This document shows, piece after piece, positions 29,647 to 35,763 of a stretch of 64,000 bases of DNA. The DNA comes from Deltaproteobacteria bacterium. Its GTDB lineage: Bacteria; CG2-30-53-67. The DNA is taken from NCBI GenBank assembly GCA_013151235.1, contig JAADIO010000048.1, forward strand, positions 26,772 to 90,771, written 5' to 3'. The translations under genes were made by a program, and so were the position numbers. The notes beneath the pieces are model-generated. The model saw only the letters and a list, made by a program, of their open reading frames with translations, was not told the origin of the DNA and did no database searches. Positions within the stretch are counted from its first letter, which is position 1. Every line of letters starts with the position of its first letter.

Positions 29647-30618
29647 TCAGGGAGTTGGAGGGAGAAACTTGCGGAGTTTCCTGAGGATCTCGTTGGTATA
29701 GCGGAAAAATTCGTCGGCAACGATGGCGACCCAGAGTCCTTTTTCGCCCCGCTCTTCCAGAACTTTCATTCCGTAGACGGTCATCCCGGAGGAAGGCCCT
29801 GCGACAATCCCTTCCCGGCATATCATTTCCACCAGGGTGCGATAGGCATCGTCGGAGTCGACGAGGATTTTTTCATCGATGATCGATTCATCATAGATCT
29901 CCGGCTTCATCGTGTATTCCGTGTTGCGCAGACCGTAAAACTCGTGGCTCTGCTCACTCGGTTCCACGGAGATGATCCTGATCTCCGGGTTCTTTTCCTT
30001 CAGGTATCGGCCCACCCCGGTGATGGTGCCCCCGGTGCCGACGCCGCTGATGAAGTGGGTGATCTTTCCGGCCGTCTGCGCCCAGATCTCCGGTCCCGTC
30101 GTTTGAAAATGGATCTCCGGATTATGACGATTTCCATACTGATAGGGAACCATATGATCGGGCAGGTTCTTGTAACCGAAGGCGGCGGCAATGGCTCCTT
30201 CTCCGGGGAAACGGGGGCAGGCGTCATCGGGGCTTAAATCCATCGAGGAGGTCGTCAGGGTCAGCAGCGCCTTCTTGCCGGCGGGGATCTGCTCCCCCGA
30301 GGTGATCACCGGCTTCTTGTATCCTAAAAGGTTCAGAAAAACGCTGAGGGCCACCCCCGTGTTTCCCGATGTCGGTTCGACACAGGTGGTCTCCGGCTTC
30401 AAATCACCATCTTCAATGGCGCCGGTAATCATGCCGAAAGCGGTCCGGTCCTTGATCGATCCCACGGGGTTGAAAAATTCCAGTTTCGCGCAGGCGATCC
30501 GATCCTTCTTCGGTTCAATAACATGATTCAGGCGCACCAAAGGAGTGTCCCCGATCAGCTCGGTGATGTTGTTGTAGATCCCCCGATGTTTCAGCGGTGG
30601 TCTGGTATGCTCTGTCAT
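29647..30618 (-). CDS. Cysteine-synthase-like PLP enzyme (CysK/CysM family)
   Basis: 323 aa. Fold type II PLP enzyme with the Schiff-base Lys56 in NPVGSIKDR, the substrate loop TSGNTG (83-88), the phosphate clamp GVGTGGTITG and the C-terminal GPSSGM. The segment after the substrate loop (ITSGEQIPAGKKALLTLTTS) differs from standard CysK. The enzyme should replace the activated side chain of O-acetylserine or O-phosphoserine with sulfur. Placement at the end of an operon with a MoaD-type carrier, an E1 enzyme and a JAMM peptidase suggests a protein thiocarboxylate as sulfur donor, as for mycobacterial CysM. That is inference. I used the second ATG (30618) for spacing from AGGAG. Confidence 0.85.
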   Translation of the reverse strand: MTEHTRPPLKHRGIYNNITELIGDTPLVRLNHVIEPKKDRIACAKLEFFNPVGSIKDRTAFGMITGAIEDGDLKPETTCVEPTSGNTGVALSVFLNLLGYKKPVITSGEQIPAGKKALLTLTTSSMDLSPDDACPRFPGEGAIAAAFGYKNLPDHMVPYQYGNRHNPEIHFQTTGPEIWAQTAGKITHFISGVGTGGTITGVGRYLKEKNPEIRIISVEPSEQSHEFYGLRNTEYTMKPEIYDESIIDEKILVDSDDAYRTLVEMICREGIVAGPSSGMTVYGMKVLEERGEKGLWVAIVADEFFRYTNEILRKLRKFLPPTP

Positions 30619-30699
30619 CATCTCTCCTTTCCGGCACCCGGCGGGGAGGATTCTTCCGTTCTGTCATATAAGAAGCCGCCGGTTCATACAGATGAAGCG

Positions 30700-30942
30700 T
30701 CACTTTTTCTTTGCAATTATTTGCCAGTCCGTTTCGTTGACGGCGCTGACTTCCAGCACCTCGTGTCCCTCCCCCCTGAGACTGCGGGGCACGTTTTCCG
30801 TGGCGGGCTGATGGTCCACGATGATTCTCAGTATCTCGCCGGCCGAGAGGGTCTCCAACGCCAGTTTCGTCTTGACGAAGGTGTAGGGACAGACTTCTCC
30901 TTTGATGTCCAGTTCCCTGTCGATCTTGTATGGATCGTTCAT
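30700..30942 (-). CDS. TusA-family sulfur carrier
   Basis: 80 aa. The TusA (SirA) signature CPYTFVKTK is present with the persulfide Cys18. TusA proteins take sulfane sulfur from a desulfurase or rhodanese and hand it to a partner of the DsrE family. DsrE-, DsrF- and DsrH-like genes lie directly upstream in the same operon. Strong ribosome site GAGGAG. The C-terminus ends in Lys residues. Confidence 0.92.
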   Translation of the reverse strand: MNDPYKIDRELDIKGEVCPYTFVKTKLALETLSAGEILRIIVDHQPATENVPRSLRGEGHEVLEVSAVNETDWQIIAKKK

Positions 30943-31020
30943 GAAGTTTTCTCCTCATAATATCATTTCCCGTTCCCTGCCGGAATCCATGAGAGGTGAT
31001 TGATCCCCCCCGCCGGAGCG

Positions 31021-31281
31021 TCACCAGCAGATTACGGCATCCGCCTCCAGAAGAAGGGAAACAATGGCATCATAGTCTACGAGTTCGCCTGTGATCGACT
31101 TTCCTCTCGCCTCGACGTCGTCCCGGCAGGCATAGACCTTCTCGATCCCTTCCACCGGAGTCAGCACGGCATCATGGAGGAGGAGTACGGAAACCTCGGC
31201 TCCGGCCGCCTGTTCCTCCAGGATTTCAACGGCATAAGGATCCTGCCGGCTTTTGAGAACATGGAGGATTTTTTTCGGCAT
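31021..31281 (-). CDS. DsrH/TusB-like protein
   Basis: 86 aa. It fits the DsrH/TusB pattern: LHVLKSRQDP at the N-terminus, LLLHDAVL, VYACRDDVEARG (a cysteine and the Asp-x-x-ARG motif), and a C-terminal aromatic Trp after ADAVIC. In TusBCD and DsrEFH this is the third subunit. ATG at 31281 behind GAGGGA. A GTG two codons upstream would overlap that site. Confidence 0.78.
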   Translation of the reverse strand: MPKKILHVLKSRQDPYAVEILEEQAAGAEVSVLLLHDAVLTPVEGIEKVYACRDDVEARGKSITGELVDYDAIVSLLLEADAVICW

Positions 31282-31291
31282 ACCCACTCCC

Positions 31292-31636
31292 TCAACAGCC
31301 GATTACAAGATCGCTCCCGGCAAGGATCTTGCCGAGGGTACGACGATTCTCCCGGGTTACGGGGAAGACGGTCTCGACGATGCTCCGCTCCGCCATTGAC
31401 TCCTTCTCCGCCAGAAAGGGACACCCTAATTCCCGGAGAGTCCGCACATGGCGGTGAATTTCGGACAAACCGATCCTCTCCGGTGCCGGGGCCTGCAGGA
31501 GAAAGACCCCTTCTTCGGCCAGCACGATCTTGACCCTATTCCCGGAAAGCGTCATCCCCAGGGACATGCGGAGCATTTCCGAGATAAACATTCGTTCCAG
31601 GGGCGGTTTCCGTAGAAGTATGACGAGCTCTTTCAT
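31292..31636 (-). CDS. DsrE-superfamily protein, DsrF/TusC-like
   Basis: 114 aa. N-terminal strand-helix KELVILLRKPPLERMFISEM and VKIVLAEEGVF match the DsrE-like fold. The C-terminus SDLVIGC ends in a cysteine, a position seen in some family members. Its order between the DsrE-like and DsrH-like genes supports the DsrF/TusC role. Similarity is weaker than for its neighbours, so the subunit assignment rests partly on gene order. Confidence 0.68.
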   Translation of the reverse strand: MKELVILLRKPPLERMFISEMLRMSLGMTLSGNRVKIVLAEEGVFLLQAPAPERIGLSEIHRHVRTLRELGCPFLAEKESMAERSIVETVFPVTRENRRTLGKILAGSDLVIGC

Positions 31637-31647
31637 GAATATTTGCC

Positions 31648-31962
31648 TCAGTGAAAGGAGAGGAACGCATCGCCCTTCGCGACCATTTCCGACAGATCAT
31701 ACTGACTGCCGAAGAGGACCCCCTCCCGGCGGGGCACTTTTCTTTGGTCGGCATCGTAGGCACAGAGAATAATCTCCACCCCCCGGTCCGCAAGTTCCAT
31801 GAAATCGTCCCGGAGAATATGGTAGACCCCGTCGTACATCAGAAAGATCCGGACCCGGTGCCCCTGCCGGAGGGCCGCTTCCGAGATCTTCATCACGGTC
31901 CGGCGATTTTCACTTTCCGGGCTGGAGGTCAGCAGAAGACCGATCGCAGCGGACTTGCCCAT
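31648..31962 (-). CDS. DsrE/TusD-like sulfurtransferase subunit
   Basis: 104 aa from the ATG at 31962. DsrE fold with GLLLTSSPESENRRT, VRIFLMYDGVYH and VEIILCAYDADQR. The cysteine after the last strand matches the position of the persulfide Cys in DsrE/TusD. The start overlaps the JAMM gene stop by one base (TAATG). It probably forms a complex with the two following subunits and accepts sulfur from the TusA protein. Confidence 0.78.
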   Translation of the reverse strand: MGKSAAIGLLLTSSPESENRRTVMKISEAALRQGHRVRIFLMYDGVYHILRDDFMELADRGVEIILCAYDADQRKVPRREGVLFGSQYDLSEMVAKGDAFLSFH

Positions 31963-32417
31963 TATGCATAACTCCCTTCCCGGAATTGTTTCCGGGGGAT
32001 GATCCTCAATCGCTCTTCCCGGAAGGATCTCTCCTGCGGCTCCAAAACCCAGGACCTTGACGATGGGTCTTTCCCCTCGATGACTGAAACAATCAGATAG
32101 GAATATTCGTTCCATGCACGGTGAAGATCCACGGAGGAGGGGAGGGAAGGCCCATCGGGATGAGAGTGATAAAAGCCGAGGATCTCCCGACCGGCCTTTC
32201 GGGCCTCCCGGTCTACCCGCAGGAAGTCTCTTCCGTCGATCGCATAACGGTCACATCCCCGAAGGTGTTCGCGGTTCTTTGTCGGAAAATTTTTTTCAAC
32301 CCGTTTCTCTTTCCCCAACCGGCCGACGAGAATTCCGCAACATTCCTGAGGATATTCCCGGACGGCCTGCCGATGGATGCGTTGAAGAAGAGAGGGGGAA
32401 ATCAGGAGTGCGGTCAA
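31962..32417 (-). CDS. JAMM/MPN+ metallopeptidase (Mec+-like)
   Basis: 151 aa. The zinc peptidase motif is complete: Glu25 in PQECCG, then His84-x-His86, Ser94 and Asp97 in HSHPDGPSLPSSVD. Bacterial members such as Mec+ (Mycobacterium) and HcyD release the amino acid product from a sulfur carrier protein after C-S bond formation. The MoaD-like carrier in the same operon is the obvious substrate. The start is uncertain. TTG at 32417 has the ribosome site GAGGTG, and a TTG at 32435 has none. Confidence 0.87.
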   Translation of the reverse strand: MTALLISPSLLQRIHRQAVREYPQECCGILVGRLGKEKRVEKNFPTKNREHLRGCDRYAIDGRDFLRVDREARKAGREILGFYHSHPDGPSLPSSVDLHRAWNEYSYLIVSVIEGKDPSSRSWVLEPQERSFREERLRIIPRKQFREGSYA

Positions 32418-32450
32418 GAATGGATCACCTCGCAAGGGGACGGAAAGCCG

Positions 32451-33257
32451 TCAGAAGTTTACCCGGCAGAATTCTTCATAATCGATCAATTCCGTAATGG
32501 TCGGATGCTCCCCGCAGACGGGGCAGCCGGGATCTTTCCGCACCTTGATGGTCCGGAACTCCATTTCCAGCGCCTCGTAATTCAGCATCCGGCCCTGCAG
32601 AAGTTTTCCCGTCTTCAGGATCAGCTTCAGAACTTCCGTCGCCTGAAGCAGACCGATCACGCCGGGGAGAACCCCGAGAACCCCCGCTTCTTCACAGGAG
32701 GCCGTCATCCCCGGCGGGGGCGGCTCCCGGAAGAGACAGCGATAACAGGGACCCTCTCCGGGGAGAATGGTCATGACCTGACCGGTAAAACGGAAGACCG
32801 CTCCGTAGGAGAGGGGCTTGCCGGTCAGGACACAGGCGTCATTGACAAGATAGCGGGTCGGAAAATTGTCGCTCCCGTCGACAACAATGTCATAGCCCTG
32901 AAGGATCTCCAGAATATTCTTTGAGGTCACCCGCTCCTGATAGGTCGTTACCTCCACGGCCGGATTCAGCGCTTCCAGGGTTTCTTTGGCGGAGAGTGCC
33001 TTGTTCTTCCCCAGGTCCGTCATGCTGTGTACCACCTGCCGTTGCAGGTTGCTCAACTCCACGTGGTCGCCGTCGACAATCCCGATCTTTCCCACGCCTG
33101 CGGCGGCGAGATAGTAACCTACCGGCGCCCCGAGACCTCCGCCTCCGATCATCAACACACGGGCATCACGGATCTTTTTCTGGCCTGCTCCCCCGACCTC
33201 CGGGAGAAGAATATGCCGGCTGTAGCGCTTGATTTCGTCTTCCGAAAAGTCAAACAT
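32451..33257 (-). CDS. E1-like sulfur carrier adenylyltransferase (MoeB/ThiF family)
   Basis: 268 aa. Adenylation site GGGGLGAP (38-45), the DGDHVELSNLQRQ loop, zinc-binding pairs CYRC (171/174) and CPVC (245/248), and a Cys188 in TASCEEAGVLG. There is no C-terminal rhodanese domain, so sulfur must arrive from another protein. The Tus-like relay encoded downstream is a candidate. The likely job is to adenylate and thiocarboxylate the Gly-Gly end of the MoaD-like protein. It could instead serve molybdopterin or thiamin synthesis, but no moa or thi gene is nearby. Confidence 0.9.
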   Translation of the reverse strand: MFDFSEDEIKRYSRHILLPEVGGAGQKKIRDARVLMIGGGGLGAPVGYYLAAAGVGKIGIVDGDHVELSNLQRQVVHSMTDLGKNKALSAKETLEALNPAVEVTTYQERVTSKNILEILQGYDIVVDGSDNFPTRYLVNDACVLTGKPLSYGAVFRFTGQVMTILPGEGPCYRCLFREPPPPGMTASCEEAGVLGVLPGVIGLLQATEVLKLILKTGKLLQGRMLNYEALEMEFRTIKVRKDPGCPVCGEHPTITELIDYEEFCRVNF

Positions 33258-33259
33258 TT

Positions 33260-33484
33260 TCAGTTGCGTTCCTCCACGTTCACGTGCATCGTTCGTAAAA
33301 ACGAGACTGCGCGCTCGATCTCCTTTTCCTCACCCTCCAGTTCCAGGAGGACCCATCCTTCCTGTTCCGTTACCGCCGCCTGAAAGATGCTGGTCACCAC
33401 CTTGAATTCGTGACCGATCCGATAGATGACCGGTTCCTGAATCAACTCGTCGGAAAAGGTCAGACTGATCATTTTCTTCGCCAT
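33260..33484 (-). CDS. NIL domain protein (second of a tandem pair)
   Basis: 74 aa, a stand-alone NIL (ferredoxin-like ACT-type) domain: MISLTFSDELIQEPVIYRIG, then VLLELEGEEKEIERAV. About half its residues match the adjacent NIL protein, so the pair arose by tandem duplication. In methanogens and Deltaproteobacteria NIL domains are often fused to MetN or 4Fe-4S domains and linked to methionine or homocysteine sulfur metabolism. Here no fused domain exists. A few bases overlap or abut the E1 gene. Confidence 0.82.
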   Translation of the reverse strand: MAKKMISLTFSDELIQEPVIYRIGHEFKVVTSIFQAAVTEQEGWVLLELEGEEKEIERAVSFLRTMHVNVEERN

Positions 33485-33508
33485 ATCATTGCTCCCCGTC
33501 CTCCACCG

Positions 33509-33745
33509 CTATTCGATCACATCCATTACGACCGGTTCGACCCGCACGTCCTGTGACTTCAGGTATTCCATGGCCCGGCCGATCTCTTCCGGTTCCCCTT
33601 CCAATTCCAGCCCGACAACCCCGATCTCGTCGGTCACACTGGCACAACGAATGTTGGTCACCACATTGAACTTGTGACCCACATGATAGATCAGCGGCTC
33701 CCGGATCAGTTTGGGGGGAAAGGTCAGATAAACTTTACGTTTCAT
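33509..33745 (-). CDS. NIL domain protein (first of a tandem pair)
   Basis: 78 aa. KVYLTFPPKLIREPLIYHVG and VGLELEGEPEEIGRAMEYL define the NIL domain. The ATG at 33745 follows AGGAGG at ideal spacing and lies 2 bp after the MoaD-like gene. The roughly 10-residue C-terminal tail (VEPVVMDVIE) is longer than in its neighbour. Possibly a small-molecule or partner-binding regulator of the sulfur carrier path. No catalytic residues are seen. Confidence 0.83.
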   Translation of the reverse strand: MKRKVYLTFPPKLIREPLIYHVGHKFNVVTNIRCASVTDEIGVVGLELEGEPEEIGRAMEYLKSQDVRVEPVVMDVIE

Positions 33746-33747
33746 CC

Positions 33748-34023
33748 TCAACCTCCTGCAATGGCGGGAACGATGGAAAGAGCGTCCCCGTCCTTGATCT
33801 TTGTTTCCAGATCGTTCAGAAACCGGATATCCTCGTCATTGAGATAGACGTTCACGAATCTTCGCAATTTCTCATTCTCATCGCAGATTCGTTCCTGAAT
33901 GCCGGAATATTGCTTCTCCATGTTCGAAATGATTTCCCGAACCGTTTCCCCTTCAGCGGTCACCTCCGATGCGCCATCGGTCAGTGATCGAAGCGGCGTT
34001 GGAATTCTGATTGTTACGGACAT
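33748..34023 (-). CDS. MoaD/ThiS-like sulfur carrier protein ending in Gly-Gly
   Basis: 91 aa, ubiquitin-like fold. It begins SVTIRIPTPLRSLTDGA and ends ALSIVPAIAGG with the terminal di-glycine directly before the stop, so no processing is needed. Segment FVNVYLNDEDIRFLNDLETK is the usual MoaD/CysO beta region. A strong ribosome site (GGGAGG) supports the ATG at 34023. Operon partners (threonine-synthase-like enzyme, E1, JAMM, cysteine synthase) fit a CysO-type role better than molybdopterin synthesis. Confidence 0.9.
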   Translation of the reverse strand: MSVTIRIPTPLRSLTDGASEVTAEGETVREIISNMEKQYSGIQERICDENEKLRRFVNVYLNDEDIRFLNDLETKIKDGDALSIVPAIAGG

Positions 34024-34060
34024 TATTGACCTCCCATGTTTCAGTTTTTTAGATGTTTTA

Positions 34061-35302
34061 TCATAACCGGGACTGATTTTCCAGCAAAAGGGCTTCAAAG
34101 GAGTCGAGCCTGGAATCGATCACCGGGTGGGGATGCAACCGGCCGACGAGGGCTTCCTGAGTTTTCAGGCCATTTCCTGTAATGGAAACCACGATCGATT
34201 CGTCGCGGGGGATCTTTCCCTGTTCAATGAGTTTTTTCGCCGCCCCCAGGGTGACCCCGCCGGCGGTTTCCGTGAAGATCCCTTCCGTCTCCGCCAGCAG
34301 TTTGATCGCTTCGATGATCTCATCGTCGGTGACCTCTTCTCCCCACCCTCCCGAATCGGTCATGGTCCGGATGGCGTAGAACCCGTCCGCAGGATTTCCG
34401 ATGGCCAGCGATTTGGCGATGGTGTCCGGTTTGACCGGTTTGAAAAGCTCCGTCCCTTTCTTCACGGCCGTTACAATCGGGGAGCAGCCGGTCGCCTGGG
34501 CTCCGAACATCTTCGTGGGGCTCTCCTCCACCAGACCGATCTTCGCCATCTCCTGAAAGGATTTCTTCAGCTTGGTGATCAGCGAACCTCCGGCCATCGG
34601 CACCACCACATTCTGCGGAAGCCGCCACCCTAATTGCTCTGCGATTTCGTATCCGAAGGTTTTGGATCCTTCCGCATAGAAGGGACGAAGATTGATGTTG
34701 ACGAATGCCCACCGGTGTTGGTCGGCCACTTCGGTACAGAGCCGGTTTACATCGTCATAGTTCCCTTCGACCCCCACGAGGTTCGTCCCGAAGACCTGCG
34801 TTCCCATAATCTTTCCCTGCTCCAGGTCGGCCGGGATGAAGACGTAGCTCTTCAGACCGGCGGACGAAGCACAGGCCGCCACGGCATTGGCCAGATTCCC
34901 CGTCGATGCGCAGGCAATCGTGTCGAAGCCGAACTCCTTTGCTTTCGAGACCGCCACGGCGACCACCCGGTCCTTGAAGGAGAGCGTTGGGAAACTGACA
35001 GCGTCATTCTTGATATAGAGTTCCGAGACGCCGAGTTTGTGCGCCAGGTTTTCCGCCCGGACGAGAGGCGTATAACCGACGTTCTCTCCTACGGTCGGTG
35101 CTTCATCCAGGGGGAGCAGTTCCAGATAACGCCACATGTCCGGCGGCCGGGCCATGATCTTTTCACGTGACAAGACGTCGGCAATCTCATCATATTGATA
35201 GACCACTTCCAGCGGCCCGAAACAGAACTCACAGATATTGATCGGATCCTTGGGGTATTCTCTTCCGCATTCCCTGCATTTCAAACCCTGTACATAACCC
35301 AT
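34061..35302 (-). CDS. Threonine-synthase-like PLP enzyme with N-terminal zinc ribbon
   Basis: 413 aa. An N-terminal four-cysteine ribbon (Cys9, Cys12, Cys24, Cys27) precedes a fold type II PLP domain with Lys110 in LSFKDR, ACASTGNLANAVA and the glycine-rich VPMAGGSLI. The family normally converts O-phosphohomoserine to threonine. Because it is second in an operon devoted to sulfur carriers, a sulfur-accepting variant (for example acting on O-phosphohomoserine or O-phosphoserine) should be considered. The sequence alone does not decide. Confidence 0.85.
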   Translation of the reverse strand: MGYVQGLKCRECGREYPKDPINICEFCFGPLEVVYQYDEIADVLSREKIMARPPDMWRYLELLPLDEAPTVGENVGYTPLVRAENLAHKLGVSELYIKNDAVSFPTLSFKDRVVAVAVSKAKEFGFDTIACASTGNLANAVAACASSAGLKSYVFIPADLEQGKIMGTQVFGTNLVGVEGNYDDVNRLCTEVADQHRWAFVNINLRPFYAEGSKTFGYEIAEQLGWRLPQNVVVPMAGGSLITKLKKSFQEMAKIGLVEESPTKMFGAQATGCSPIVTAVKKGTELFKPVKPDTIAKSLAIGNPADGFYAIRTMTDSGGWGEEVTDDEIIEAIKLLAETEGIFTETAGGVTLGAAKKLIEQGKIPRDESIVVSITGNGLKTQEALVGRLHPHPVIDSRLDSFEALLLENQSRL

Positions 35303-35319
35303 TTCCCTGTCCCTTTCAT

Positions 35320-35763
35320 TTAGATCTGATACATATCCCGGGAAAGACTCTCCCGCTTTTTTTCTCGCTCCGCAACATCTTCCAGAGTGATTGATTTCAG
35401 ATGATTCACGATCTTCTCATTGACTTCGCCCCAGATATCACGGGTCACACACCGGTCCGACCGTTGGCAGAAAGAGCGGTCTGCCACACACTCCGTCAAG
35501 CTGAAGGCGCCTTCCAGCACGGTGATAATCGTGTAGAGATCAATTTCAGCGGGTGACCTTGCCAGGTGATAACCGCCGTGCGGCCCCCGGGTACTCTTGA
35601 CCAGACCGCCGACCCGCAAGGGAGTGACCAACTGCTCCAGATACTTCACGGAGATTTCCTGCCGTTTCGAAACCTCTCGAAGGAGGATCGGGCCTTCTCC
35701 GAAATGAAGTGCAAGATCGAGCATGAATCGTGTGCCGTATCGTCCCCGTGTTGAAAGTTTCAA
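35320..35763 (-). CDS. Rrf2-family regulator (IscR/CymR-like)
   Basis: 147 aa. Winged helix MKLSTRGRYGTRFMLDLA, EISVKYLEQLVTPL and GPHGGYHLARSP. Three cysteines (Cys92, Cys99, Cys105) at nearly the IscR positions suggest an Fe-S cluster sensor, although the spacing is CX6CX5C rather than CX5CX5C. The TTG start (35763) follows GAGGG. It heads the sulfur operon and probably autoregulates from the promoter just upstream. Confidence 0.88.
   Translation of the reverse strand: MKLSTRGRYGTRFMLDLALHFGEGPILLREVSKRQEISVKYLEQLVTPLRVGGLVKSTRGPHGGYHLARSPAEIDLYTIITVLEGAFSLTECVADRSFCQRSDRCVTRDIWGEVNEKIVNHLKSITLEDVAEREKKRESLSRDMYQI

Follow-up and report, generated by a model that had tools for sequence, protein, structure and literature searches.

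What product is made by an operon that unites a threonine-synthase-like (ThrC-like) enzyme, a sulfur carrier and a cysteine synthase? The question is raised by a locus in a 64,000-nucleotide stretch, here called the window, of a Deltaproteobacteria bacterium (CG2-30-53-67; assembly GCA_013151235.1, contig JAADIO010000048.1, positions 26,772 to 90,771), in which twelve co-directional genes run on the minus strand from 35763 to 29647, with intergenic spacings of 2-78 bases or else short overlaps. The coordinates and the family searches backing each gene type agreed with the original prediction, which had seen here a cysteine operon. The conserved core proved to be the ThrC-like pyridoxal phosphate (PLP) enzyme and the carrier, accompanied in many relatives by a NIL protein, and its context is that of methionine, with S-adenosylmethionine (SAM) riboswitches and homoserine and threonine genes. 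The locus is therefore read as a carrier-dependent sulfur amino acid operon that probably has two outputs, homocysteine and cysteine.

The first output depends on the identity of the ThrC-like enzyme, which on grounds of sequence and context is probably MetM and not primarily a cysteine enzyme. According to a 2025 paper (PMC12172450, citing Hasebe et al. 2024, AEM e01247-24), MetM of Streptomyces converts O-phosphohomoserine into homocysteine, metO is the sulfur carrier gene, in S. albulus metM lies behind a SAM riboswitch, and homologues exist in cyanobacteria. The window protein was tied to this description through Nonomuraea gerenzanensis, whose adjacent enzyme and carrier are 54% and 51% identical to the window proteins, and through a 9.2 Mb single-contig genome of 72% GC (L133), whose MetM-carrier pair stands behind a SAM riboswitch in a Streptomyces-like layout; actinomycete relatives in general are 53-54% identical to the window enzyme. 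In a phylogenetic tree, its clade was separated from true ThrC proteins with support of 100/100, and comparison with three ThrC proteins revealed 36 positions fixed differently, including several ThrC signature motifs. A ThrC of the source genome that shares 34% identity with the window protein is encoded in a separate thrC operon, together with a phosphoglycerate-mutase-like protein and, by sequence, an aspartate kinase. The possibility that the window gene encodes the housekeeping threonine synthase was ruled out by this separate operon. The window thus resembles MetM/MetO of S. albulus in placing a ThrC-like enzyme beside a sulfur carrier, with a SAM riboswitch upstream in several relatives, and differs from it by the absence of the riboswitch and by the additional E1, JAMM, NIL, TusA-DsrEFH, CysM-type and Rrf2 genes. 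In order of transcription, the twelve genes are the following (lengths in amino acids, aa).

35320..35763, minus strand: first gene of the operon, Rrf2-family regulator, IscR/CymR-like, 147 aa (NCBIfam rrf2_super above cut-off; IscR and CymR models below cut-off)
34061..35302, minus strand: predicted MetM-type homocysteine synthase, a ThrC-like PLP enzyme of 413 aa with an N-terminal Cys4 knuckle (PALP)
33748..34023, minus strand: sulfur carrier, MetO/CysO-like, 91 aa, ending in PAIAGG (ThiS Pfam)
33509..33751, minus strand: NIL protein 1, 80 aa, Asn at the MetN Asn295 position (PF09383; profile match to MetN C2 domain)
33260..33484, minus strand: NIL protein 2, 74 aa, Ser at the Asn295 position (PF09383; alignment)
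32451..33257, minus strand: E1-like adenylyltransferase, ThiF/MoeB type, 268 aa, without rhodanese domain (ThiF Pfam)
31962..32435, minus strand: JAMM metallopeptidase, E31, H90, H92 and D103 conserved (Prok-JAB; PDB relatives)
31648..31962, minus strand: DsrE/TusD-like protein with conserved Cys (DsrE Pfam; start corrected)
31292..31636, minus strand: DsrF/TusC-like protein without conserved Cys (DsrE/DsrF Pfam)
31021..31287, minus strand: DsrH/TusB-like protein without conserved Cys (DsrH Pfam and TusB model below cut-off; same gene type in L072/L073)
30700..30942, minus strand: TusA-like sulfurtransferase, Cys18 invariant (TusA Pfam)
29647..30621, minus strand: CysM-type cysteine synthase with loop HEFYGLRN (cysKM; loop alignment)

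Two gene starts were corrected: the carrier begins at 34023, and the start of DsrE was moved from 32115 to 31962, because the ATG at this position overlaps the JAMM stop codon and the relatives measure 101-112 aa. The Rrf2 protein carries a Cys-rich stretch, CVADRSFCQRSDRC, read from the sequence, and its gene is separated by 17 bases from the next.

The gene block is a real conserved unit and not a chance association. The block was found in every sampled genome of the same family (6/6) and in 0/2 of the sister family, and ten of its gene types recur outside this phylum in two loci (L072, L073) where MetM, carrier, E1, DsrE, DsrF, synthase, DsrH, TusA, NIL-NIL and Rrf2 lie together. The source genome (2.6 Mb, 99% complete) belongs to a small phylum, of which 8 genomes were sampled, and its close relatives are metagenome-assembled genomes labelled Nitrospirae and CG2-30-53-67. 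The whole sample comprised 290 bacterial genomes; NIL matches led to the loci in which a ThrC-like protein, a carrier and a NIL protein occur together, and a profile search with the ThrC-like protein (E < 1e-120) detected a MetM-family protein in 51 genomes from many families, 49-51 of these 51 proteins having lost the ThrC motifs. The window MetM is 59-70% identical to most relatives in other phyla, and the carriers 50-60%. Around the 51 MetM genes were counted a carrier in 43 loci, NIL in 31, E1 in 22, cysteine synthase in 20, JAMM in 16, TusA in 15, Rrf2 in 11, DsrE in 8, DsrF in 6, DsrH in 5 and a true ThrC in 2, and by these counts the core consists of the ThrC-like enzyme and the carrier, often with NIL, the remaining genes being variable.

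Riboswitches are part of the methionine context. SAM riboswitches (SAM-I; one SAM-alpha) were located upstream of the ThrC-like gene and on its strand in 14 relatives (L084, L087, L088, L089, L107, L111, L115, L118, L119, L122, L123, L125, L132 and L133), within 0.4 kb of it in 10 of the 13 measured, and none was found at any other position in the scanned loci. Moreover, one relative (L076) presents the order homoserine dehydrogenase, TusA, E1, JAMM, MetM, carrier, NIL, ThrC, PhosphMutase and another (L075) the order MetM, carrier, NIL, ThrC, PhosphMutase, aspartate kinase, so that MetM lies where the pathway branches at O-phosphohomoserine; sulfate assimilation genes adjoin MetM in three loci (L083, L089, L102). 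The phosphoglycerate-mutase-like gene (PhosphMutase) that adjoins ThrC in L075, L076 and L097 is a candidate for an unusual homoserine kinase.

The distribution of other homocysteine enzymes is complementary to that of MetM. A strong match to PF01053 (MetB/MetY-type; best E-value < ~1e-28) was absent in 36/51 genomes with MetM and in 83/239 without it (p 3e-6), and the complementarity reached p 1e-7 among genomes lacking HcyBio, both p values ignoring phylogeny. In this phylum, six MetM genomes lacked strong PF01053 and two non-MetM genomes had it. Both strong PF01053 and HcyBio were missing in 28/51 MetM genomes, for example in one of the same family (G004), which has MetM only.

These results bear on the alternative that the locus is essentially a cysteine operon of the CysM-CysO-Mec+ type, in which the ThrC-like protein would either serve cysteine synthesis as well or act as an ordinary threonine synthase. 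The CysM-type synthase, the CysO-like carrier, JAMM and a synthase-JAMM fusion described below would suit it; nevertheless, it is improbable, given that the part conserved in most loci is the MetM-carrier pair (43/51), that no cysteine synthase lies nearby in 31/51, that the relatives have SAM riboswitches upstream and that ThrC is separate. The use of a carrier, an E1 and a JAMM peptidase for homocysteine recalls HcyS/HcyD/HcyF of Wolinella, which with MetY reportedly constitute a thiocarboxylate homocysteine pathway. The window differs from that route in that its PLP enzyme is ThrC-like and not MetY-type (PF01053), and strong PF01053 is lacking in its genome family.

The second output concerns the carrier and its cysteine arm. 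The best PDB matches of the carrier were CysO of Amycolatopsis (4n6e_B) and CysO of Mycobacterium tuberculosis (3dwg_C), and its C-terminal Gly-Gly is invariant among relatives. A grouping with MoaD, which would have contradicted the original prediction, was thus not observed, and no second MoaD-like carrier was found in the source genome. The identification of the carrier as MoaD or ThiS was rejected, since the only other ThiS-fold protein of the genome is a ThiS encoded next to thiG, and a separate ThiF lies close by; no MoaE adjoins the carrier, MoaE having been looked for only around it and not genome-wide. The E1 consists of a ThiF domain only, without rhodanese as first noted, and conserves a catalytic-type Cys188 (25/26) and the CxxC pairs C171/174 and C245/248. 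A natural carrier-E1 fusion (L083, 7329-8432; ThiS 6-92, ThiF 110-344) was observed at a locus that also holds an adenylylsulfate/phosphoadenylylsulfate (APS/PAPS) reductase, ATP sulfurylase and sulfite reductase.

Alignment of the operon synthase with E. coli CysM and with the other CysK of the genome revealed a short loop, HEFYGLRN, against IQGLGAGFVP in CysK, which corresponds to the CysM type, recognized by a loop with Arg/Lys replacing GxGAGFVP. Two genomes (G001, G002) have the operon without synthase and JAMM and carry elsewhere a fusion of these two proteins (L135, 7119-8450; L136), which supports a peptidase that acts directly after the synthase, like Mec+ after CysM. JAMM was present in 48/52 MetM genomes and in 14/60 others (p 3e-14; threshold E up to 1e-6, the 60 comparison genomes not being a random sample). 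In the closest relative genome, the JAMM gene is seemingly broken by an in-frame TAG stop (L004, 6895-7401). The resemblance to CysM-CysO-Mec+ of M. tuberculosis that had first been proposed was therefore borne out by the CysM loop, the structural relatives of the carrier and the synthase-JAMM fusion, and extends to the intact catalytic residues of JAMM. In that system, Mec+ acts after CysM and MoeZR has a rhodanese domain (PMC3227635), which the window E1 lacks; moreover, the main conserved PLP enzyme of the window family is MetM. One carrier thus probably feeds two PLP enzymes.

NIL proteins, which had been left without an assigned place, can now be given a likely role through their match to the MetN C2 domain and their equivalent of Asn295, a residue with a role in methionine binding (PMC12357092). 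Nine of the 31 loci with NIL contain carrier~NIL fusions, which bury PAIAGG (or PAVAGG) internally, other carriers having short tails past Gly-Gly. In these fusions a cut after Gly-Gly is expected, because only an exposed terminal Gly-Gly can bear a thiocarboxylate, and JAMM is a candidate peptidase for it. The predicted structure of a fusion contained two confident domains and a linker whose predicted local distance difference test score (pLDDT) fell below 50 at residues 103-105 (AGG). Its carrier domain matched M. tuberculosis CysO (Z 17.9, root-mean-square deviation 1.7, 89 residues) and its NIL domain the MetN C2 domain (3tuz; Z 12.3, root-mean-square deviation 2.9, 75 residues). By motif count, the Asn295 equivalent was kept in 42/50 NIL proteins. 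This match to a methionine-binding regulatory domain and the mostly kept Asn make methionine-sensing feedback the preferred role, which is put forward with about even confidence. The alternative in which NIL proteins serve for docking or as a precursor part, holding the carrier or presenting it to MetM or JAMM with no ligand sensing, is possible but not favoured: the nine fusions with internal Gly-Gly and the two folded domains around a low-confidence AGG linker agree with it, although the closest fold and sequence are those of the methionine-binding domain, with its binding Asn mostly kept. As sensors, the NIL proteins of this family would share with the methionine importer the NIL fold and, in NIL protein 1, the Asn295 position, and differ in that they either stand alone or are joined to a sulfur carrier instead of an ATPase. 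A persulfide role was ruled out, no conserved cysteine being found among NIL proteins.

Other observations touch these proteins. The TTG start of NIL protein 1 overlaps the TGA stop of the carrier (33748-33751); the carrier Gly-Gly codons form GGAGG, which is Shine-Dalgarno-like and could act as a ribosome-binding site for NIL protein 1, and a frame slip at the overlap would yield a carrier~NIL fusion resembling those of the relatives. In a genome without MetM, a NIL domain lies within a protein of ~783-893 aa (L103, 6258).

The sulfur of the operon may be supplied by TusA-DsrEFH, and a plausible order of transfer would run from TusA through DsrEFH to E1, with direction and partners both presumed. 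Cys18 of TusA was conserved in 17/17 proteins and the DsrE cysteine in 10/10. The set resembles the TusBCD-TusA and DsrEFH-TusA relays in its composition and in these cysteines, and differs from them by the absence of DsrC/TusE from the operon, by a DsrH/TusB-type subunit without conserved Cys and by its probable acceptor, the E1/carrier pair. That these proteins serve another sulfur process, such as tRNA thiolation or sulfur oxidation, is rather unlikely: the established Tus/Dsr roles do lie elsewhere and Dsr genes occur in only 5-8 of the 51 MetM loci, yet the same set accompanies MetM, carrier and E1 in the two genomes of L072 and L073, which belong to another MetM lineage, DsrE/DsrF stand beside the MetM set in a third such genome, and the E1 has no rhodanese domain. 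No operon in which Dsr/TusA feed a carrier-dependent cysteine synthase was described in the titles or abstracts searched.

Several observations weigh against the two-output operon or against one of its parts. DsrF and DsrH have no conserved cysteines, and NIL protein 2 has Ser in place of the Asn. The overall best PDB match of the operon synthase was cystathionine beta-synthase and not CysM of M. tuberculosis, and the genome has CysE and a second CysK, so that sulfide-based cysteine synthesis is possible. A SAM riboswitch was looked for in the window itself and none was found. PF01053 enzymes are retained in 15 MetM genomes, and the source genome has another homocysteine route, HcyBio (DUF39) with a NIL-ferredoxin, so that MetM is not demonstrably needed there; the corresponding locus, on contig C2 (L023, 9751-12870), also holds CysK and an Rrf2 gene. 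Finally, PMC12172450 reports in vitro data by which a cyanobacterial MetM homologue is mainly a threonine synthase/deaminase. A bifunctional enzyme of this kind, as claimed for Microcystis, with an incidental carrier, is very improbable for the window, considering the adjacent carrier in 43/51 loci, the riboswitches, the lost ThrC motifs and the two genomes whose operon contains a true ThrC as well.

In the proposed mechanism, sulfane sulfur would be gathered by TusA and a DsrE-F-H complex, and E1, judging from its family, would adenylate the Gly-Gly end of the carrier and lead to its thiocarboxylate. From O-phosphohomoserine of the threonine pathway and this thiocarboxylate, MetM would form homocysteine, the methionine precursor, as suggested by sequence, context and the Streptomyces chemistry; thiocarboxylated MetO is reportedly the sulfur donor there. 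The CysM-type synthase would combine the same carrier with activated serine, probably O-phosphoserine, into carrier-bound cysteine, which JAMM would free. JAMM would probably also mature the carriers of those relatives in which a C-terminal extension or NIL domain follows Gly-Gly, by uncovering that end. With methionine or a related compound as their ligand, NIL proteins would exert feedback on the pathway, as in the MetN importer, and the Rrf2 regulator would stand in for the SAM riboswitch of the relatives. The complete combination is offered only tentatively: a thiocarboxylated carrier shared by MetM and the CysM-type enzyme, loading by TusA-DsrEFH-E1 without rhodanese, gating by methionine-sensing NIL and, in some lineages, a carrier~NIL pro-protein cut by JAMM, with carrier maturation possibly controlled by methionine.

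The original prediction knew of no description of this arrangement, which still holds for the full gene set; the MetM/MetO pair itself was published in 2024, according to PMC12172450. Within the MetM/MetO pathway, neither the NIL proteins nor the sulfur relay seems to have been described before. At least one homocysteine route has been recognised as missing in some bacteria and archaea (Price et al. 2018, PMC5764234, where a protein thiocarboxylate pathway is also mentioned). The MetM-carrier core was encountered in 51/290 genomes, 28 of them without strong PF01053 and HcyBio, which implies that many genes annotated as 'threonine synthase' have probably been misnamed. Moreover, co-occurrence statistics link JAMM to the MetM pathway, and NIL proteins, together with the carrier~NIL fusions, provide a concrete idea of how carrier-based sulfur flux may be regulated.

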